64,000 bases of DNA from Cryobacterium sp. (GTDB lineage Bacteria > Actinomycetota > Actinomycetes > Actinomycetales > Microbacteriaceae), in assembly GCA_019638935.1 (NCBI GenBank), contig JAHBSW010000006.1, forward strand, positions 31,993 through 95,992, written 5' to 3'. Both the position numbers and the translations under genes were made by a program. Below, piece by piece: positions 17,965-62,058 of this stretch. The first letter of the stretch is position 1, and each line of letters opens with the position of its first letter. The notes under the pieces are model-generated. The model saw only the letters and a list, made by a program, of their open reading frames with translations, made no database searches and was not told where the DNA came from.

Positions 17965-18267
17965 ATGGCCGAACCGCAGTCCGAAGCCGCGCGCATCCTG
18001 GGCGAGCGGGTGCGGTTCTACCGCAACAAGAGGGGTCTCAGCCAAGAGGACATGGCTCATCTGGCCGAGATGCACTGGACCAACTGGGGAAAGATCGAGC
18101 GTGGTCAGGCGAACCCGAGTCTCACGACGATCGTTCGCGTTGCAGGTGTTCTCGAGGTCGATCCCGCAGAGCTTGTCAGCGGGATCGGACTACAAAACCT
18201 GCCAGTGCGGTCTCATCAGGTCACAGCCGCGGATCTGATCAGGGAGCGCAAGAGTGGTGTCAGCTAG
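17965..18267 (+). CDS. XRE-family DNA-binding regulator
   Basis: 100 residues from ATG 17965 (GTG 17962 adds one). Helix-turn-helix region LGERVRFYRNKRGLSQEDMA followed by HWTNWGKIERGQANPSLTTI, the lambda-repressor-like fold. The size and position, divergent from mod, resemble C-type controllers of restriction-modification systems, which delay nuclease expression in new hosts. The C-terminal tail RSHQVTAADLIRERKSGVS is of unknown role. Its stop overlaps the stop of the convergent orphan gene by 4 bp inside a hairpin. Confidence 0.85.
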   Translation: MAEPQSEAARILGERVRFYRNKRGLSQEDMAHLAEMHWTNWGKIERGQANPSLTTIVRVAGVLEVDPAELVSGIGLQNLPVRSHQVTAADLIRERKSGVS

Positions 18268-18275
18268 AAGCTGAC
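18259..18275. terminator. Hairpin over convergent stop codons
   Basis: GTCAGCT-AGA-AGCTGAC is a perfect 7-bp inverted repeat spanning both stop codons (XRE plus strand, orphan minus strand). No U tract follows on either side, so it may be a weak two-way terminator or chance. Confidence 0.35.
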
Positions 18276-18557
18276 TCGCCAGAGGTACTCGCTTTCGTCC
18301 GCGCGGAACCACCGCACGATAGCCACGGTGCTTTGAGCCAAGTTTTCACCGCGCACGGTGAACTCCAGAGTCTCGCCCGGCGCCAGGTGATTTGGGGCAT
18401 TGGCGAGCATGACACCCGGACCTAGCAGCGTCAGCGTGATTGCGCGCGCTGCCTCGGTGCCGATGTTAGTCAGCCGAAAGCGAGGCGCGTCAGAGCGGTC
18501 GACAACGAACGGCACCGTGTAGGCCGGTTCGGGCTCAAGGTTGATGAGGTGGAGCAT
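18264..18557 (-). CDS. Small protein of unknown function next to the R-M locus
   Basis: 97 residues. The sequence has an all-beta look: PRFRLTNIGTEAARAITLTL, then LAPGETLEFTVRG and a closing TVAIVRWFR, a pattern typical of Ig-like/CARDB-type beta sandwiches with the conserved N-x-G turn and PG-E-x-x-x-F strand. No signal peptide or membrane segment is present. Codon bias is normal and the frame is open with a clean ATG. It lies convergent to the XRE gene and is not recognisably part of any restriction system. Real but function unknown. Confidence 0.6.
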   Translation of the reverse strand: MLHLINLEPEPAYTVPFVVDRSDAPRFRLTNIGTEAARAITLTLLGPGVMLANAPNHLAPGETLEFTVRGENLAQSTVAIVRWFRADESEYLWRVSF

Positions 18558-18706
18558 GGCTGCACCGTAGAACGGGCGTACGACGCGGCCCTAGCCCGGT
18601 GTGCAAAACACGGAGCTGGGCAGAATGTGGAGGAGAAGCACGAGCGCGTGAGGCGGCAACCACAAGCAAGTTAGACTTCTTCTTCGAGCCGTCGCTGCCG
18701 CGGTTC

Positions 18707-19915
18707 ATGACCAATCCCCCAATTGATACGGTGGAACACGTGGAACCGGACGCTCGCACCGACGCAACCGTCGATGACGGGGGCTCCACGGCTTCGATCG
18801 ACAGCATCCTCTCGCGGTTCGACGCCGCGATCGAGCGACTGCAGACCCCGCTCGAATCCGAGTCTGAGGACGATTCGGCCGAGGCCGGGCAGCCCGAGGC
18901 AGCCGCCGAATCCGTCGAGCCCCTCGAATCCGCAGAACTGGGCGTGGACACAGGTCCGTCGCCCGTTCCCGACCTCGAACTCCCCGTCAGCCCCGACCTC
19001 GACGATGATGTCGATGTCGATGTCGATGTCGATAGGGACGCGGCGACCGACGGCGACGTCGCGGGCGAACTCTTCGCCGAACTCGACACCGAGCCGGCTG
19101 AGAACACCCCCGCCGTCTCCTACCCGATCGCCGACGTGCCCGACGACCTCGACACAGACGCGATGGTCAGCATCCGCGGGCTCACCAAGCACTTCGACGA
19201 TGTCATCGCCGCCGAGAACGTGAGCTTCGACATCCGCAGCGGCACCATCGTCGGCATCGTCGGCCCCAACGGGGCGGGCAAGACGACGACCCTGTCCATG
19301 GTCACAGGCATGCTGCGACCCGACGCCGGCGCCGTGCTCATCGCGGGCGAGGACATGTGGCAGAACCCCGAGGCGGCCAAGAAGCACCTCGGAATCGTTC
19401 CCGACCGCATGCGCGCCTTCGACCGGCTCACGGGGGCGCAGCTGCTGCACTATGCGGGCGTGCTGCGCGGTCTCGACGCCGCCACCGTGCGCGAGCGAAC
19501 GACACAGCTCGCGAGCGCGCTCGGCATCACGGATGCCCTGGCTCGCCTCGTCGACGACTACTCGTCGGGAATGATGAAGAAGCTCGCTCTCGCGATCGCC
19601 GTCATCCACTCGCCGAAGGTGCTCGTGCTCGACGAGCCCTTCGAGGCCGTCGACCCCGTGTCGGTCGCTGTCGTCGTGAAGCTGCTGCGCGAGTTCGCGG
19701 CGGCGGGCGGGGCGGTCGTGCTCTCGAGCCACAGCCTCGGCCTCATCCAGGACCTGTGCGACGAGGTCGCTGTCATCGTCGGCGGGCGCGTCATCGCGGC
19801 GGGCACGGTCGACGAGGTGCGCGGCGACGAAAGCCTGGAAGACCGGTTCATCGCCCTCGTGCGCGATGACGAGGTGGCGGAGGACATGGAGTGGTTGCAC
19901 AGTTTCTCCGGCTGA
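18707..19915 (+). CDS. ABC transporter ATPase with acidic N-terminal extension
   Basis: 402 residues from ATG 18707. Residues 1-145 are acidic and low complexity, including a DVD run encoded by four GTCGAT hexamers at 19010-19033. The ATPase domain follows: Walker A GPNGAGKTTT, signature YSSGMMKKLALA (a YSSGM variant of LSGGQ), Walker B VLVLDEPFEAVDP and H-loop SSHSLG. This is the ABC-2 exporter type. It overlaps the permease gene by 25 bp and should form one transporter with it. The start is uncertain because the extension is poorly conserved; GTG 18740 is an alternative behind a TACGGT hexamer. Substrate unknown. Confidence 0.85.
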   Translation: MTNPPIDTVEHVEPDARTDATVDDGGSTASIDSILSRFDAAIERLQTPLESESEDDSAEAGQPEAAAESVEPLESAELGVDTGPSPVPDLELPVSPDLDDDVDVDVDVDRDAATDGDVAGELFAELDTEPAENTPAVSYPIADVPDDLDTDAMVSIRGLTKHFDDVIAAENVSFDIRSGTIVGIVGPNGAGKTTTLSMVTGMLRPDAGAVLIAGEDMWQNPEAAKKHLGIVPDRMRAFDRLTGAQLLHYAGVLRGLDAATVRERTTQLASALGITDALARLVDDYSSGMMKKLALAIAVIHSPKVLVLDEPFEAVDPVSVAVVVKLLREFAAAGGAVVLSSHSLGLIQDLCDEVAVIVGGRVIAAGTVDEVRGDESLEDRFIALVRDDEVAEDMEWLHSFSG

Positions 19916-21578: not shown

Positions 21579-21845
21579 ATGAGCACTCTCGAGCCAGATC
21601 AGACCGGTGGCGGTGTCGACACGCTCGACCGCGAACTCGAAGAGCTGCTGAATCAGGAGCAGCTCGAGGAGGGCGACCACGAGCGGTTCAGCCACTACGT
21701 TCCGAAGAACAAGATCCTGGAGTCGGCGCTCACCGGCAAGCCCGTGCGCGCCCTCTGCGGCAAGCTGTGGACGCCGGGGCGCGACCCCGAGAAGTTTCCC
21801 GTCTGCCCCACCTGCAAAGAGATCTACGAGAAGATGAAGGAGTAG
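21579..21845 (+). CDS. DUF3039 family zinc-ribbon-like protein
   Basis: 88 residues. The C-terminal half matches the actinobacterial DUF3039 pattern: HYVPKNKI, ALCGKLWTPGRDPEKFPVCPTCKEIYEKM, with three Cys and a His able to bind zinc. Function is not known; the family is widely conserved in Actinobacteria. Leaderless start after a TAGGCT box. Confidence 0.88.
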   Translation: MSTLEPDQTGGGVDTLDRELEELLNQEQLEEGDHERFSHYVPKNKILESALTGKPVRALCGKLWTPGRDPEKFPVCPTCKEIYEKMKE

Positions 21846-21873: not shown

Positions 21874-21929
21874 CGAACGACGCCAAATTGCTGTTCCGTA
21901 TGCGCCGAACAGCAACGTGACGTAGTTCG
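21874..21929. repeat. Palindromic repeat, upstream copy (P1)
   Basis: Inverted arms 21874-21896 and 21907-21929, 19 of 23 positions complementary, loop of 10 nt. Each arm contains a version of CGAACTACGYCANNTTGCTG. The same 20-mer consensus forms both arms of the repeat at 22965-23022 on the other side of the nuclease-like gene. Confidence 0.8.
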
Positions 21930-21970
21930 AGGGGTGAGCTGGTCGGCCGTGGGGACAAAAATCCACGCGG

Positions 21971-22999
21971 ATGCTGGTTTGGCGGCAATCTGAGACGGTG
22001 AGTCAGCGAGTTCCGCTACCGCCTGAGTTTGTGCAGGCCCCGTTCTCGCGTCGGAATGCACTGAGAGCGGGACTCACCGATTCGCGGCTGCGGTCGCGCG
22101 ATCTCGTGCGGCCCTTTCACGGAGTGCGCATCCACCGCGATCTGGCGAACGATGTCCTCTGGCGCTGTCGTTCCTACCGGGAGCGAATGGGAGCGGGCTT
22201 TGTTTTCAGCCACTGGACCGCTGCGTCACTACTCGGCGTGCCGCTACCCGACTACGTGGATCGGAGCACTGTGCACGTCTCGGCGCGTCATCCGTCACGT
22301 AAGCCGAGTGGAGTCGGTGTCACCGGCCATCAGATCGCGGCTGACATATGGCGGTCGACAGAGCTGATTCTCCGAGACGACGACACCGGAAGCCTCGACG
22401 TCTTTCCAATCGTGTCGCCTGCGCTCCTCTGGACACAGCTGGCGACGACTCTCGATCTCGACGATCTTGTCGCTGCGGGTGATGCGATCGTCACCTCGCG
22501 TGGGCCCGATGTTCTCGCCGTGGGGCCTATGGTCACGCTCGACGAGCTCGCGGCAACGATAGCCGCTCATACCGGTCGCCGAGGGGTGCGCGCGTTGCAG
22601 CGAGCACTGTCGCTGGTTCGAGTCGGCTCTTTGTCTCGTCCCGAATCGTTGTTGCGGCTCATGCTCGTGCGCGCTGGCATCCCGGAGCCGCGCCTCAACC
22701 TCACGGTATGCGACCGCTCCGGTGCCGCGATAGCGATGGCAGATCTGTGTTGGCCGGACTATCGCGTGCTCATCGAGTACGAGGGTGATGGTCATCGCAC
22801 ATCCCGAGCCAAGTTTCGCAGCGACATCACGCGGATCGAGAAGTACGCGGATGGCGACTGGTTTGGGATGCGTGCCTCGGCGGACGACGTCTTTGTCGAC
22901 CCCAACCCGTTTGCCGGTCGCATCGCGCGCAGGCTGGCGGCTCAAGGATGGCGCTCGCGGCGCACCGAACTACGTCATATTGCTGCTGCCAGGTCGTAG
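21971..22999 (+). CDS. AbiEi/DUF559-like protein with PD-(D/E)xK-type C terminus
   Basis: 342 residues. The N-terminal part (about 20-60; PFSRRNALRAGLTDSRLRSR, then GVRIHRDL) resembles the winged-helix AbiEi antitoxin-like head common in actinobacterial orphans. The C-terminal part (about 256-330) looks like a DUF559/Vsr-type nuclease fold: ADLCWPDYRVLIEYEGDGH followed by RSDITRIEKYADGDW, with D258, D263, E269 and E271 as candidate metal ligands. Lower GC than neighbours. It has no partner gene; instead palindromes P1 and P2 flank it, P2 encoding its last residues. ATG 21971 or GTG 21998 may be the start. Could be a single-gene defence or mobile nuclease; family call moderate. Confidence 0.75.
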   Translation: MLVWRQSETVSQRVPLPPEFVQAPFSRRNALRAGLTDSRLRSRDLVRPFHGVRIHRDLANDVLWRCRSYRERMGAGFVFSHWTAASLLGVPLPDYVDRSTVHVSARHPSRKPSGVGVTGHQIAADIWRSTELILRDDDTGSLDVFPIVSPALLWTQLATTLDLDDLVAAGDAIVTSRGPDVLAVGPMVTLDELAATIAAHTGRRGVRALQRALSLVRVGSLSRPESLLRLMLVRAGIPEPRLNLTVCDRSGAAIAMADLCWPDYRVLIEYEGDGHRTSRAKFRSDITRIEKYADGDWFGMRASADDVFVDPNPFAGRIARRLAAQGWRSRRTELRHIAAARS

Positions 23000-23022
23000 T
23001 GCAGCAAATTGGCGTAGTTCGG
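22965..23022. repeat. Palindromic repeat, downstream copy (P2)
   Basis: Inverted arms 22965-22986 and 23001-23022, 19 of 22 positions complementary, loop of 14 nt. The left arm codes for the last residues of the AbiEi/DUF559-like protein and its stop lies in the loop. Arms share the consensus of P1. Confidence 0.82.
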
Positions 23023-23051: not shown

Positions 23052-24347
23052 CTACGCGAAGACGGTGGGGATGACCGGCTCGCCGCGGCCGAGACGCAGC
23101 GCGTCGAGGGGGAGTTCGGCGACGGCAGCGGCGCGGTGCTCGCGGGCGGAGGCGGTTCCGGCCGACCCCAGGTAAAAAGCATCCGGAACCCCCGCGGTGA
23201 CGAGCGGTACGAGCAGTTCGCGTCCCGGGTTGTCGACTGGCCCGTCGTCGGAGACGGTGATGAGCTCGCGAACGGCGCGGCCGTCGCGGCCGAGCACCCG
23301 CGTGGCCCACTTGCGCCCGCCGACCGAGGCCTTGCCCGATGACGCCTTCGCGACATCCACCCACTCGCCGTCGTCGCCCTGGCGGGCGACGAGCTTGTAG
23401 ACCATTCCGGATGCCGGTGCACCAGATCCGGTGACGACCGAGGTTCCGACGCCGAACGAGTCGACCGGCGCTGCACGCAGCGCGGCGATCGCGTACTCGT
23501 CGAGGTCGTTGGTGACGGTGATGCGAGTCCCTGTTGCGCCGAGCGAGTCGAGCCGCGCCCGCACCTCGGCGACGACGACGGGCAGGTCGCCGCTGTCGAT
23601 GCGCACCGCGCCGAGTGACGGTCCGGCCACGCGCACCGCGAGGTCGACGGCCGCCATCATGTCGTAGGTGTCGACGAGGAGGGTGGTGCCGGGGCCGAAC
23701 GCGGCCACCTGGGCGCGGAAGGCGTCCTCCTCGCTGTCGTGCAGGAGGGTGAACGAGTGGGCGGCGGTTCCCATGGTGGGCACGCCCCAGGTGCGCCCGG
23801 CCTCGAGGTTGCTCGTGGCGGTGAAGCCCGCGATGTAGGCGGCGCGGGCCGCAGCGACGGCCGAGTGCTCGGAGGTGCGGCGCGAGCCCATCTCGGCGAT
23901 GGGGCGCTCGCCCGCGGCCGAGACCATGCGGGCGGCGGCGCTCGCCACGGCCGAGTCGTAGTTGTAGACGCTCAGGGCGAGTGTCTCGAGCACGACGGCC
24001 TCGGCGAAGGTTCCCTCGACGACGAGCAGCGGCGAGCCCGGAAAGTAGACCTCGCCCTCGCGGTAGCCCCACACGTCGCCGCCGAAGCGATAGTTCGCGA
24101 GCCAGTCGAGGGTGGCCGCGCGAACGACCGAGTTCTCGCGCAACCAGGTGAGCTCGGCATCCGTGAACCTGAACCGGGTGAGCTCGTCGAGAAAGCGCCC
24201 GGTGCCGGCGACGATTCCGTAGCGGCGCCCGGCGGGCAGCCGGCGGGCGAAGAGCTCGAAGATGCTGCGTCGATGGGCGGTGCCCGATTGCAGGGCCGCG
24301 TCGACCATCGTCAGCTCGTAGCGGTCGGTCAGTAGGGCGCTCGTCAC
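23052..24347 (-). CDS. pncB: Nicotinate phosphoribosyltransferase
   Basis: 431 residues. PncB makes nicotinate mononucleotide from nicotinate and PRPP with ATP in NAD salvage. Seen: LLTDRYELTMVDAAL at the N terminus with the family YELTM motif, FELFARRLPAGRRYG, the His-containing GVPTMGTAAHSF region, VRIDSGDL, and GTSVVTGSGAP. Length and motif order fit class I enzymes. GTG start 6 nt after a TAGGCT -10 box; divergent from murI across only 35 bp. Confidence 0.95.
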   Translation of the reverse strand: MTSALLTDRYELTMVDAALQSGTAHRRSIFELFARRLPAGRRYGIVAGTGRFLDELTRFRFTDAELTWLRENSVVRAATLDWLANYRFGGDVWGYREGEVYFPGSPLLVVEGTFAEAVVLETLALSVYNYDSAVASAAARMVSAAGERPIAEMGSRRTSEHSAVAAARAAYIAGFTATSNLEAGRTWGVPTMGTAAHSFTLLHDSEEDAFRAQVAAFGPGTTLLVDTYDMMAAVDLAVRVAGPSLGAVRIDSGDLPVVVAEVRARLDSLGATGTRITVTNDLDEYAIAALRAAPVDSFGVGTSVVTGSGAPASGMVYKLVARQGDDGEWVDVAKASSGKASVGGRKWATRVLGRDGRAVRELITVSDDGPVDNPGRELLVPLVTAGVPDAFYLGSAGTASAREHRAAAVAELPLDALRLGRGEPVIPTVFA

Positions 24348-25260: not shown

Positions 25261-25989
25261 ATGGCCGCCACGAGAGCAGACGGCCGTGCCGTCGACGAGC
25301 TTCGCCCCATCACGATCGAGCGCGGCTGGAGCGAGCAGGCCGAGGGCAGCGCGCTCATCTCCTTCGGCCGCACGAAGGTGCTGTGCACGGCATCCTTCAC
25401 ACCCGGCGTGCCGCGCTGGCTCACGGGCAAGGGCAGGGGCTGGGTGACGGCGGAGTACGCCATGCTGCCACGCTCCACGAACGAGCGCATGGATCGCGAG
25501 TCGGTCAAGGGTCGCGTCGGTGGGCGCACTCACGAGATCTCGCGCCTGGTCGGTCGCAGCCTGCGCGCCATCATCGACACGAAGTCGCTCGGAGAGAACA
25601 CGATCGTCATTGACTGCGATGTGCTGCAGGCGGATGGCGGCACCCGCACGGCGGCGATCACGGGTGCCTACGTGGCGCTCGCCGACGCGATCGAGTGGGC
25701 GCGGGGCAAGGGTTTCGTCGGCAAGAGCGCGACGCCGCTCTTCGACAGCGTCGCCGCAGTGAGCGTCGGCATCATCGACGGCGCTCCTATGCTCGACCTC
25801 GCCTACACCGAGGACGTGCGCGCCGAGACCGACATGAACGTCGTCGTCACCGGGCGCGGGCTCTTCGTCGAGGTGCAGGGAACCGCCGAGAGCGCCCCCT
25901 TCGACCGCGCCGAGCTGAACAGCCTGCTCGACCTCGCGGTCGGCGGCGCGGCGACGCTCACCGAGCTGCAGCGCGCGGCCCTCGCCTAG
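25261..25989 (+). CDS. rph: Ribonuclease PH
   Basis: 242 residues. Phosphorolytic 3'-5' exoribonuclease that trims tRNA 3' ends. Seen: [89 protein letters not shown]. Start ATG 25261 is chosen because GAGGAG at 25247-25252 sits 8 nt upstream; the GTG at 25252 lies inside that site. Follows murI by 5 nt. Confidence 0.96.
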
Positions 25990-26013
25990 GTCGATCCCGT
26001 GAAGGCTGGTCCC

Positions 26014-26595
26014 GTGAAACTCGTTCTCGCCACCCACAACGCCCACAAGGTCGAGGAGCTGCGCCGCATCCTCGGCCCCGCGCTCGATGGCTTCGACCTT
26101 GTCGGCTACGACGGTCCTGAGCCGGTCGAAGACGGGGAGACGTTCGAGCAGAACGCTCTCATCAAGGCACGGGCTGCCGCCGCGCACACCGGGTTGCCGT
26201 CTCTGGCGGATGACTCGGGCATCCGTGTCGCGGCGCTGGGCGGTGCACCGGGCATCCACTCGGCGCGCTACGCGGGAACCCGCGACGACCGCGACAACTA
26301 CACGCTGCTGCTCGAACGGATGCGCGGGGTCGCCGACCGCGGGGCCGAGTTCTGCTGCGCGGCCGCGTTCGTCGACCCGACCACTGGGTTCGAGCATGTC
26401 GAGCTCGGGGTGTGGCCGGGCGAGCTTCTCACCGAGCCGACGGGGACGCATGGGTTCGGCTACGACCCGGTGTTCCGTCCGGAGGGCCGCACGGTGGCAT
26501 CCGCCGAGCTCACCCCCGACGAGAAGAACGCGATCAGCCACCGCTCGCGCGCCTTCGCGGCGCTGCTGCCGGTGGTTCGGGAACGCCTAACCTAG
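26014..26595 (+). CDS. rdgB: dITP/XTP pyrophosphatase (RdgB/HAM1)
   Basis: 193 residues from GTG 26014. Removes non-canonical purine triphosphates. Seen: KLVLATHNAHKVEELRRIL, FEQNALIKARAAA, SLADDSGIRVAALGGAPGIHSARYAG, and THGFGYDPVF ... NAISHRSRAF, all family hallmarks. The sequence gatcccgtgaa/ggtcccgtgaa is duplicated at the start, giving two in-frame GTG codons (25999 and 26014); the second begins the conserved KLVLATHN strand directly. Third gene of the murI-rph-rdgB run. Confidence 0.95.
   Translation: MKLVLATHNAHKVEELRRILGPALDGFDLVGYDGPEPVEDGETFEQNALIKARAAAAHTGLPSLADDSGIRVAALGGAPGIHSARYAGTRDDRDNYTLLLERMRGVADRGAEFCCAAAFVDPTTGFEHVELGVWPGELLTEPTGTHGFGYDPVFRPEGRTVASAELTPDEKNAISHRSRAFAALLPVVRERLT
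26588..26593 (+). promoter_or_regulatory. -10 box of cation-efflux gene
   Basis: TAACCT inside the end of rdgB, 6 nt before the ATG at 26600. Confidence 0.45.
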
Positions 26596-28722: not shown

Positions 28723-29465
28723 CGACCGGCGCGGCGCGCGCCGACTTCGCATTGAGCGTTCGCGATCTTTCCGTGCGCTACGGCCCGGTGCACGCCCTCG
28801 CCGATGTCGACATCGAGCTCGGCGTGGGCCGCGTCACGGCGCTGATCGGGATGAACGGCTCGGGCAAGTCGAGCCTCTTCAACGCGATCATGGGTCGAGT
28901 GAGGCCGGCTTCCGGCGAGATCGGGGTGTTCGGGCAGTCGTCGCTCGCCGCCCGCAGGGCCGGGCTGGTCGCCTACCTGCCGCAGCAGGAGTCGATCGAC
29001 TGGGACTTTCCGATCTCGGTTCGTCAGGTCGTCATGACGGGTCGGTTCGGCATGCTCGGCCCCACTCGCAGACCGCGTGCGATCGACCGCGAGGCCGTCG
29101 TCGATGCGCTGCGCCGAGTGGGTCTCGCCGATCTCGAAGAGCGCCAGATCGGCGAGCTCAGCGGCGGGCAGCGCAAGCGCGTCTTTCTCGCGCGATCCAT
29201 CGCCCAGCAGGCGAGGCTCCTCCTCCTCGACGAGCCCTTCGCGGGGGTGGACAAGGCCTCCGAGGCGTCGATCATCGCGCTGCTGCACGAGCTCAGGGAC
29301 TCCGGCTGCGGCATCCTGATCTCCACGCACGACCTCGCGGGGGTTCCCGAGCTGGCCGACGAGGTCGTGCTGCTGCGCAACCGTGTGCTCTTTCACGGGC
29401 CGACCGCCGAGGCGCTCGACCCCGCGATGCTCACGCGCGTGTTCGGACTGGAGGCGAGCGCATGA
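28719..29465 (+). CDS. Metal ABC transporter ATPase
   Basis: 248 residues. Walker A IGMNGSGKSSLF, Q-loop LPQQESIDWDFP (the DWxFP form typical of Mn/Zn ATPases), signature LSGGQRKRVFLARS, Walker B LLLLDEPFAGVD, H-loop STHDL. Overlaps the binding-protein stop and the permease start by ATGA sequences, so the importer is one translationally coupled unit. Confidence 0.94.
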   Translation: MTTGAARADFALSVRDLSVRYGPVHALADVDIELGVGRVTALIGMNGSGKSSLFNAIMGRVRPASGEIGVFGQSSLAARRAGLVAYLPQQESIDWDFPISVRQVVMTGRFGMLGPTRRPRAIDREAVVDALRRVGLADLEERQIGELSGGQRKRVFLARSIAQQARLLLLDEPFAGVDKASEASIIALLHELRDSGCGILISTHDLAGVPELADEVVLLRNRVLFHGPTAEALDPAMLTRVFGLEASA

Positions 29466-42584: not shown

Positions 42585-43552
42585 TGGGTCCGGTCGTCGG
42601 CTGGGCCGTGCTGTGCGGAACCGCGCTCGGCGTCGGCCTGTGGTCGCTCGTGTCGCTCACGCCCGCCATCGGCCGGCCACGGTTGATGAGCAGGATCGCG
42701 CCCTACCTCGTGGATGTCTCGGAGAACGCGCGTGCGATGCAGCAGCGCCGCGCCTCCAGCCCCCTGCCGGTGCTCGGCTCGCTGCTTGCCCCGCTGATGG
42801 AGTCGGGGCGAACCTTCGTGAGCCGTGTTCTCGGCGGCAACGAGACGATCGAGCTGCGTCTGCGCCAGTCGGGATCGAGCGCATCGGCGGGGGAGTTCCG
42901 ATCGCGGCAGCTGGCGTGGGCGATCGGTGGGCTCATCGCGGGCGTGCTGCTCGCCGTCGCCCTCGCCCAGGCGGGCGCGGCACAGGCGAGCGCGGCGCAG
43001 TCCACCGCGACGACACCGCTCGCTCTCGCGGGGGTCGTCGCGGTGGGCGCCGTCGGCGGCTTTCTCGCGAGCGATTGGATGCTGCAGCGCAGAGCTCGCG
43101 CGCGGCTCCGCCGAATCGCCGGTGAGCTGCCGACTGTGCTCGAGTTCCTCACCTTGAGCCTGTCGGCAGGGGAGGGGATCCTCGACTCGATCAGGCGGGT
43201 CTCCGGCCGGGGTCGCGGTGAGCTGAGCGCCGAGTTCGCACATGTGGTCGCGCGGGTGGCCGCCGGTGTGCCGCTCACGCGCGCGCTGACGGAACTGGCC
43301 GACGGCATCCGTCTGCCCGCCCTCACTCGCTGCGTCGACCAGGTGGCGGGCGCGCTCGAGCGGGGCACCCCGCTCGTCGAGACCCTGCGCGCTCAGGCTC
43401 AGGATGCGCGCGACGCGGGCAAGCGCGCGCTTCTCGAGGCGGCGGGACGCAAAGAGGTGGGGATGCTGATCCCTCTCGTGTTCCTGATTCTGCCGGTGAC
43501 GATCGTGTTCGCGATCTTTCCGGGGATCTTCGTATTGCAGCTCGGTTTCTAG
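42584..43552 (+). CDS. tadC: Tad pilus platform protein TadC-like
   Basis: 322 residues. Hydrophobic ends and a GspF domain LPTVLEFLTLSLSAGEGILDSIRRV, GVPLTRALTELADG. Partner of the TadB-like protein in the membrane platform. ATG 42584 overlaps the preceding stop by one base; GTG 42581 would add one residue. Confidence 0.9.
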   Translation: MGPVVGWAVLCGTALGVGLWSLVSLTPAIGRPRLMSRIAPYLVDVSENARAMQQRRASSPLPVLGSLLAPLMESGRTFVSRVLGGNETIELRLRQSGSSASAGEFRSRQLAWAIGGLIAGVLLAVALAQAGAAQASAAQSTATTPLALAGVVAVGAVGGFLASDWMLQRRARARLRRIAGELPTVLEFLTLSLSAGEGILDSIRRVSGRGRGELSAEFAHVVARVAAGVPLTRALTELADGIRLPALTRCVDQVAGALERGTPLVETLRAQAQDARDAGKRALLEAAGRKEVGMLIPLVFLILPVTIVFAIFPGIFVLQLGF

Positions 43553-57480: not shown

Positions 57481-57565
57481 CTGGTTGAGTAGCGCGCTCG
57501 CGCGCGTATCGAAACCAGATTCGCAGGCGAGGTTTCGATACGCCGCCTTTGGCGGCTACTCAACC
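57481..57565. repeat. Inverted pair of GGTTGAGTAG...GTATCGAAACC repeats
   Basis: Copy 1 at 57481-57518 (plus; inner stem GCGCGC/GCGCGC) and copy 2 at 57531-57565 (minus; inner stem CCGCC/GGCGG). Outer arms are conserved while the inner stem varies with matching changes on both sides. Confidence 0.8.
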
Positions 57566-61323: not shown

Positions 61324-62010
61324 AGCGGAGGCGACGAACCGCGCGTCGACCACCGCCGCGACCTCGATCTCCTCGGGCTTGAGCGAGAGCTCAGGGCTTG
61401 CGGCCGAGTCCATCGAGGCTTTCATCATGCGGGGTGCCGCGGCGGCGAATTCGAAGCCGCCACCGGATGCCGACGACTGGTCCCCGAGCATGCCCGGGTC
61501 GGCGATCGCGATCGCCCGCACCCGGGTGAGACCGATCGCGTCGGCGTAGGTCTGGGCCTTGCGGGTCGCGTCGGCGACGGCGCGGGCGCGCACCTCGGTG
61601 GTGGCGGCATCCTTGCGCTCATCCGTGAGCTTCCACTCGACCCAGCTGATCGCCACCCCGTCGGCGGCGGCCTGCCGCTCGAGAAAGCGGGAGAGCGCGT
61701 CGAAGTCGTCGAACTCCGCGGTGAAGCCGATGCGGGCGTGGTAGACGAGGGGGAGCTGTTTGCCGTCCTGGTTCCACGGGCGGTCGCTCCAGACCTGGAT
61801 CGAGTCGCTCGACCACGTCGTGATCGGACCAGCGGACGAGTCATGCAGCGACTCGATCGCGCCGCGCAGCGACTCGGCGGCGGTGCTCGCATCGGTGAAC
61901 ACGGCATCCCTCGCCGGTCCATCGAAGCTCACGCCGAGGCGCACGACGGCGCGCTCGGCCGCGTGGCGGGCGACGTCGCGCCCCTGAACGGTGATCACGG
62001 TCTCGGTCAT
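61318..62010 (-). CDS. SIMPL (DUF541) domain protein
   Basis: 230 residues. ITVQGRDVARHAAERAVVRLGVSFDG, then RARAVADATRKAQTYADAIGL and GGGFEFAAAAPRMM ... PEEIEVAAVVDARF follow the SIMPL/DUF541 pattern. No signal peptide, so probably cytoplasmic here. Function unknown. TAATCT (62022-62017, minus) is 6 nt before the ATG. Its last codons and stop lie in a repeat. Confidence 0.88.
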   Translation of the reverse strand: MTETVITVQGRDVARHAAERAVVRLGVSFDGPARDAVFTDASTAAESLRGAIESLHDSSAGPITTWSSDSIQVWSDRPWNQDGKQLPLVYHARIGFTAEFDDFDALSRFLERQAAADGVAISWVEWKLTDERKDAATTEVRARAVADATRKAQTYADAIGLTRVRAIAIADPGMLGDQSSASGGGFEFAAAAPRMMKASMDSAASPELSLKPEEIEVAAVVDARFVASAG

Positions 62011-62016
62011 GGCGAC

Positions 62017-62022
62017 AGATTA
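62017..62022 (-). promoter_or_regulatory. -10 box of SIMPL gene
   Basis: TAATCT on the minus strand with 6 nt to the ATG at 62010. Confidence 0.5.
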
Positions 62023-62058
62023 CCTCGCGCAGCTGTCGCCATGACCGATCGTGAAGCG

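Follow-up and report, generated by a model that had tools for sequence, protein, structure and literature searches.

A nuclease gene between two copies of one palindrome in Cryobacterium sp.: a putative single-gene mobile element of actinobacteria

Does a solitary nuclease-like gene that stands between two related palindromes move together with them? The question is raised by a locus of Cryobacterium sp. (contig JAHBSW010000006.1), lying within the 64,000-nucleotide (nt) stretch of DNA that was analysed and that is called here the window, in which two imperfect palindromes of 56 nt each, P1 and P2, bracket one gene (Table 1). An earlier interpretation made from the letters of the window (the sequence-only reading) had proposed an undescribed mobile or defensive cassette at this place. 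The present analysis points, with a probability of roughly 0.6, to a selfish single-gene mobile element that carries a copy of its own palindrome at each end; this palindrome would be its putative recognition site, and the element would spread by cut and repair. This reading draws on the architecture of the unit and its recurrence in the protein family, on element-specific palindromes of near-fixed spacing found at multiple sites, on sites that lack the gene or alternate between full and lone forms, on reading frames that are mostly open, and on the predicted fold.

The unit in the window and its recurrence in the family

All four arms of P1 and P2 fit the consensus CGAACKACGYCANNTTGCTG without mismatch. 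When up to 3 mismatches are allowed, this consensus has 5 matches in the window, four of them being the arms themselves, compared to 0.28 expected from shuffles. In the window, identity is 0.90 between the outer arms, 0.90 between the inner arms, and 0.80 and 0.85 within each palindrome. As single-stranded DNA, P1 and P2 fold on both strands better than 200 of 200 shuffles (z from -3.0 to -5.4), and the single sub-threshold match found in Rfam (E 0.19) lies away from them. The positions given for the palindromes in the sequence-only reading were confirmed, as were the presence of a single plausible frame between them and the overlap of P2 with the 3' end of the gene, of which it covers the last ten codons and the stop; the shared arm sequence also stands, except that the left arm of P1 reads G where T had been written. 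The unit does have the lower GC content claimed for it: its GC is 0.63-0.65, and the 500-base windows between 18750 and 21749 and those that begin at 22750 or later lie at 0.67-0.74. This is not unique, as GC is again 0.62-0.65 at 18000-18999.

Judging from the N-termini of its homologues, the protein probably starts at GTG 21998 (333 amino acids). It matches no family in Pfam, PADLOC (0 defence families) or NCBIfam, and even at E 1 Pfam yields no match, hence none to a Y1/HUH or other transposase domain. Among 68 family members, in contrast, REase_MTES_1575 is matched by 53, DUF559 by 36 and AbiEi_4 by 2. The predicted fold, taken solely from a second look with VIA-align, consists of an AbiEi-like DNA-binding module and a nuclease domain whose nearest structure among the matches listed there is the homing endonuclease I-Bth0305I, with Vsr next; the high root-mean-square deviation suggests that the orientation of the two domains is flexible. 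E225, D258, H275 and D285 are invariant across the 68 family members and are candidates for the conserved E, D, H and D residues of the EDxHD motif. The protein is thus not a Y1 transposase, as had been stated, while the AbiEi/DUF559-like traits that had been described are seen in Pfam matches of homologues and, as regards AbiEi, in the predicted fold, but in no Pfam match of the window protein itself.

Homologues were matched in 110 of 150 family genomes, with at least 14 in one genome, and two sets of loci were read. In the first set (72 loci, comprising the 30 best matches, L081, L032 and a further 40 taken from the list) the frames of the sampled genes were mostly open, and hairpin density reached 1.97 per kb near the gene, compared to 0.136 per kb elsewhere in the loci and 0.014 in shuffles. 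Hairpins flanked the gene on both sides in 35 of the 72 loci and on at least one side in 55. When the two flanks of the gene, upstream and downstream, were compared within a locus, a score of 20 or more being taken as a match, 47 of 69 loci (three with short or broken frames having been left out) had matched flanks, whereas only 1 of 552 pairings across loci and none of the 67 far-flank pairs reached this score. The second set came from named genomes through a scan of genome_contigs with a five-sequence alignment, so that it is biased to relatives of those five; 78 of its 80 loci were read and 72 were usable, and 41 of these 72 had matched flanks versus 7 of 576 cross-locus pairs. Pooling the non-redundant relatives, after removal of 5 duplicates and of 12 loci whose frames were short or that lay at contig ends, gave 83 of 133 versus 5 of 1330; several of the loci in these cross-locus comparisons (5/1330 and 7/576) come from related genomes. 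By group, the pooled matches amount to 66 of 99 in Microbacteriaceae, 13 of 22 in Mycobacteriales, 1 of 5 in Bifidobacterium and 3 of 7 in others. In the plasmid and phage collections, family matches were found in 3 plasmid records, all from Arthrobacter, and in 1 partial phage record, and both of the two Arthrobacter plasmid loci looked at have a palindrome on each side. The window unit is therefore one case of a family-wide pattern, and the supposed co-occurrence of palindrome and gene was borne out by a matched pair in most of the sampled family members, the pair being different at each locus.

A putative address at both ends, lone palindromes and gene-free sites

Of the 112 palindromes in the 56 loci in which both members of the pair were detected and matching, 63 have CGA..TCG placed symmetrically, with an end-to-end distance of 56 nt in 29 cases, 57 nt in 28, 58 nt in 5 and 63 nt in 1. 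In an arm alignment anchored on CGA, which fixes positions 1-3 by construction, identity at positions 5-9 is 0.91-1.00 when arms of the same locus are compared (27 loci), and the information held there between loci is only 0.09-0.48 bits (36 loci). Similarly, the mean score between P1 and P2 is 34 within a locus, whereas between palindromes from different loci it is 8-9 if the proteins are less than 50% identical and 17 if they are 60-80% identical; over 34 loci, palindrome similarity follows protein identity weakly (Spearman 0.16; 2 of 2000 permutations gave as high a value). Because likeness is high within loci and low between them, the arms are taken from these comparisons to hold an address of the element's own, alike at both ends and drifting faster than the protein.

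The window's genome (2.41 Mb in 75 contigs) contains six 56-nt palindromes of this type, namely P1, P2 and lone copies on contigs C12, C18, C46 and C57, and a slightly longer lone variant on C17 brings the lone sites to five in all. Arms within three mismatches number 37 in that genome, compared to 13 for a reversed control pattern. No nuclease homologue was seen around the lone copies, of which that on C57 lies between convergent genes, that on C18 directly behind a glnE-like gene and that on C12 between mnmA- and lysA-like genes (gene names from reading the translations). An integrase-like frame, likewise recognized from its translation, adjoins the C18 copy (L034 2209-3531). The 56-nt form was found in none of 149 other family genomes and none of seven congeners, and a related form had no match in genome_contigs, a public collection possibly lacking the window's own genome; judged from these searches, the P1/P2 form is confined to the gene-bearing genome, as one would expect if the lone copies belong to one system with the unit. 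The sequence-only reading had held that palindromes at many sites unrelated to the gene, with no empty sites, would speak against a cassette. Half of this picture was found, given that five palindrome sites are free of the gene, yet, among the genomes searched, the 56-nt form was found only in the one that bears the gene. The sole other homologue found there (G000:C10, about 25374-26583; L039, L032), 26-29% identical, is bounded by its own, different palindromes of 52-64 nt, with lone copies at C1:39087-39136 and C12:22343-22392.

Gene-free sites are present at the window site itself. The unit leaves about 30 nt spare on each side towards two host genes, the left one presumably a small gene for a DUF3039-type protein and the right one presumably pncB, for nicotinate phosphoribosyltransferase. 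Seven congeners were compared at this site, and the nuclease gene is absent from six: in five of them (G150, G152, G075, G154 and G138) 11-41 nt with no hairpin separate the host genes, and in the sixth (G151) the spacing is 138 nt and includes a single 44-nt hairpin, unrelated and of score 10 (L075, about 1388-1431). The seventh, G153, has at the same site a homologue 44.5% identical, with a copy of another palindrome on each side. Divergence at the empty sites seen is too great for a target-site duplication to be read.

Table 1. Positions in the window of the palindrome-bounded unit and of the host genes on either side
Feature	Position	Strand	Remarks
AbiEi-like + Vsr/EDxHD-type nuclease gene	21971..22999	+	342 amino acids from ATG 21971
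P1, left palindrome	21874..21929	none	20-nt arm, 16-nt loop, 20-nt arm; 56-nt type also at dispersed genome sites
P2, right palindrome	22965..23022 (56-nt core 22966..23021)	none	20-nt arm, 16-nt loop, 20-nt arm
Left flanking host gene	21581..21845	+	adjoins pncB without nuclease gene in six congeners
Right flanking host gene	23052..24347	-	convergent to unit

A second source of information was the genus Microterricola (genomes G129, G155, G156, G157 and G063), recognised as such because G155 coincides at two loci, in contig and position, with M. pindariensis PON 10. G129 carries a unit, L088, between what we take to be a CPBP-protease-like gene and gcvP, and a 73% identical counterpart stands at the same site in G157. 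G155 is the closest relative of G129 (93-94% in shared flanks, versus about 81% for G157), and it has at this site a single palindrome that differs from G129's P2 at 3 positions. Full and palindrome-only versions thus occupy one orthologous site in sister species. The simplest reading of the sequences is that G155 lost the gene and one palindrome, although a gain at a lone palindrome in two lineages could also account for them. G129 and G155 have 3 lone L088-type palindromes each and G157 has 5, whereas G156 and G063 have none (one single arm with 3 mismatches in the latter); the 9 of these 11 lone sites that were measured with a pattern allowing 54-58 nt are all exactly 56 nt long. The unit of G063, in turn, is missing, without any palindrome, from its site in G129 and G155. 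The expected empty sites between syntenic flanks thus exist. The interval between DUF3039 and pncB is occupied repeatedly: within Microterricola, G157 carries a lone palindrome of L088 type there, G129, G155 and G156 carry palindromes of other kinds, and in G063 the interval is empty.

Some side observations concern these palindromes. Those at the DUF3039/pncB junction (L212-L216), which lies between convergent genes, are unrelated from species to species: depending on the species there is a solitary 56-nt palindrome, several of 59-73 nt in tandem, one of TTTCGACAGGCTCA type, or none. Palindromes of the TTGAGCTTGTCGAAA..TTTCGACAAGCTCAA type occur at two Microterricola sites (L136/L139 and L216). 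In G129, the lone palindrome L154 (C1, about 361762) has a left arm of L088 type and a right arm like another element's type, which suggests recombination between palindrome types.

How the unit may spread, and competing explanations

For the spread of the unit we infer binding, dimerisation, cutting and a repair route. The AbiEi-like module would read one arm of about 20 nt, and a dimer on the 56-57-bp dyad would set the two nuclease domains near its centre, where the cut would be made. Dimer binding and a central cut are proposed because a palindrome of 56-57 bp, with one arm per monomer, fits both the binding of inverted repeats by AbiEi proteins and the I-Bth0305I dimer. A cut allele, or a related site without the gene, would then be repaired from the palindrome-gene-palindrome copy, which would insert the unit in a homing-like manner. 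Lone palindromes may be left by recombination between the two bounding ones, or the insertion step may be reversible and start from one; they would accordingly represent sites before insertion or after loss. The divergence of the arm address may allow several elements to coexist in one genome.

Several observations weigh against this reading. Both palindromes were detected and matching in only 56 of 144 loci, the flanks of 50 of the 133 pooled loci fell below the score threshold, and the first set over-represents better-scoring members, which favours intact genes. Homing normally disrupts its target, whereas here both bounding palindromes are largely intact and self-protection is not evident. 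Two candidate explanations were tried and rejected in this respect. That the unit splits one target palindrome, in which case the outer arms should match best, was hinted at by the window, but in 27 loci all six arm comparisons average 0.88-0.91. That the bounding palindromes are degraded against self-cutting fits the window, whose bounding palindromes are less perfect than its lone copies, but Microterricola shows no such trend. In addition, two lone L088-type sites are orthologous between Microterricola species, so that dispersal is not rapid, and G155, where no L088-type gene was found elsewhere, is a draft of about 140 contigs. Finally, the L056 type is present in G077 as the bounding pair only, with no lone copy, and its single arms at 2 mismatches appear once or twice in each of five other genomes of the 150.

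Among the alternatives, the nuclease might process palindromes that fold into a single-stranded hairpin or a cruciform while the DNA replicates, spreading them in trans, as proposed for the TnpA-REP/RAYT proteins of REPtrons. Such a process would suit the palindromes bordering the gene and their solitary copies at other places, the capacity of both strands for strong DNA hairpins, and the loop orientation in the 56 paired loci, of which 16 have direct and 11 inverted loops, the other 29 being undecided. However, it is rendered unlikely by the absence of a Y1/HUH match, by a fold combining AbiEi with a Vsr/homing-type nuclease, by the multi-copy nature of these genes (tnpA-REP genes being described as mostly single-copy and lacking evidence of mobility, PMC8266576) and by the scarcity of lone palindromes, which range from 0 to 5 in each genome for every type that was counted. 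Rather less probable still is the notion that another host transposase or recombinase moves the palindromes and that the nuclease, for instance a defence gene, is carried along. Relatives do match defence models (AbiEi profiles in up to 18 of 68, the methyl-directed restriction enzyme mREase_II in 8 and anti-phage ProA in 3), and the same intergenic sites can hold several unrelated palindrome types where the gene is absent. Against this, each nuclease comes with its own palindrome type, and that of the window, in its 56-nt form, is missing from the other family genomes searched.

An immobile gene, with P1 serving for AbiEi-type autoregulation and P2 for termination, appears improbable. AbiEi proteins are known to bind inverted repeats for autoregulation (PMC7319586), and the positions of P1, shortly before the gene, and of P2, at the gene's end, would agree with such roles. 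Nevertheless, a T-run is missing after both palindromes on either strand, on which ground transcription terminators were rejected, and neither the matching copies on both sides and the distant lone copies (one between convergent genes) nor the gene-free sites and the lone/full alternation would be explained. As for hairpins arising by chance, or from a palindrome excess general to GC-rich genomes, the window has four others of 40-90 nt at a score of at least 11, and unrelated palindromes do share intergenic sites; but shuffles of the window yield 0-3 such hairpins, and the flank controls given above contradict this explanation, which was rejected and is hardly credible.

Relation to known systems

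The selfish-element reading combines traits of two known systems, and the unit is filed here as a variant that would work like a homing/REPtron hybrid. REPtrons (tnpA-REP/RAYT) also consist of a single gene bordered by palindromes, with related ones standing alone in the genome and a palindrome type specific to the enzyme. They differ in that the enzyme is Y1/HUH and not AbiEi plus Vsr/EDxHD-like, while the palindromes described here are of about 56-57 nt with a near-fixed dyad spacing, the genes are multi-copy at several sites and the lone copies are few. REP palindromes bear a GTAG (or CGTC) tetranucleotide tag at one end (PMC3733652); GTAG/CTAC lies inside the arms in the window, the only arms considered in this regard, and not at the palindrome end.

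With EDxHD homing endonucleases the unit shares the predicted catalytic-domain fold, I-Bth0305I being the best match among solved structures, and, with free-standing homing endonuclease genes, the existence of filled and gene-free alleles. I-Bth0305I belongs to the EDxHD family and is described as a dimer whose target spans nearly 60 bp (PMC3943268), a length that would be compatible with the 56-57-nt palindrome. The unit differs from homing endonuclease genes in its AbiEi-like DNA-binding module and in being intergenic between largely intact palindromes, not inside its target, with no intron or intein. Unlike the AbiEi antitoxin and Rv2827c (type IV toxin-antitoxin), the AbiEi-like module is fused to a nuclease domain, and the DUF1814 nucleotidyltransferase toxin gene that follows AbiEi in the AbiE operon is absent, P2 and then the convergent pncB coming directly after the gene. 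The names REase_MTES_1575, DUF559 and Vsr, to which the Pfam and fold matches lead, denote a domain; such a domain is described in a large fusion protein, and palindromes are not mentioned in the part of that paper at hand (PMC3710099).

No description of palindromes beside this protein family was found in the open-access literature, subscription papers and preprints being mostly outside its coverage. The suggestion that an undescribed palindrome-gene-palindrome unit with a non-Y1 nuclease exists thus gained ground from the family recurrence, from the gene-free sites between syntenic flanks and from the full and palindrome-only versions at one orthologous site. It is slightly better than an even chance that these units represent an unrecognised class of prokaryotic mobile elements, in which a homing-endonuclease-like nuclease is guided by an AbiEi-type DNA-binding module to the 56-57-bp palindrome of its own unit. 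Such a class would be widespread in actinobacteria, with several units per genome that rapidly diverging arm addresses keep separate and with full/lone alternation; it would correspond to REPtrons but with a non-HUH enzyme, and would supply these genomes with dispersed palindromes. Palindromic repeats that spread with one enzyme family are known for Y1/HUH enzymes. If the proposal is true, a second, unrelated enzyme has the same layout, and palindrome-bounded single-gene selfishness arose more than once; a function would be provided for many multi-copy actinobacterial genes labelled DUF559 or REase_MTES_1575, and dispersed intergenic palindromes in actinobacteria would be explained. A variable arm address joined to a nuclease would, moreover, make a natural series of long site-specific nucleases with the target written beside the gene, and a recognition code that is directly testable.

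The four other hairpins of the window, of 40-46 nt and not of P1/P2 type, are found at 62003-62048, 57504-57543, 43002-43046 and 29327-29370 (e.g., TCGGTCATGGCGACAG..CTGTCGCCATGACCGA).
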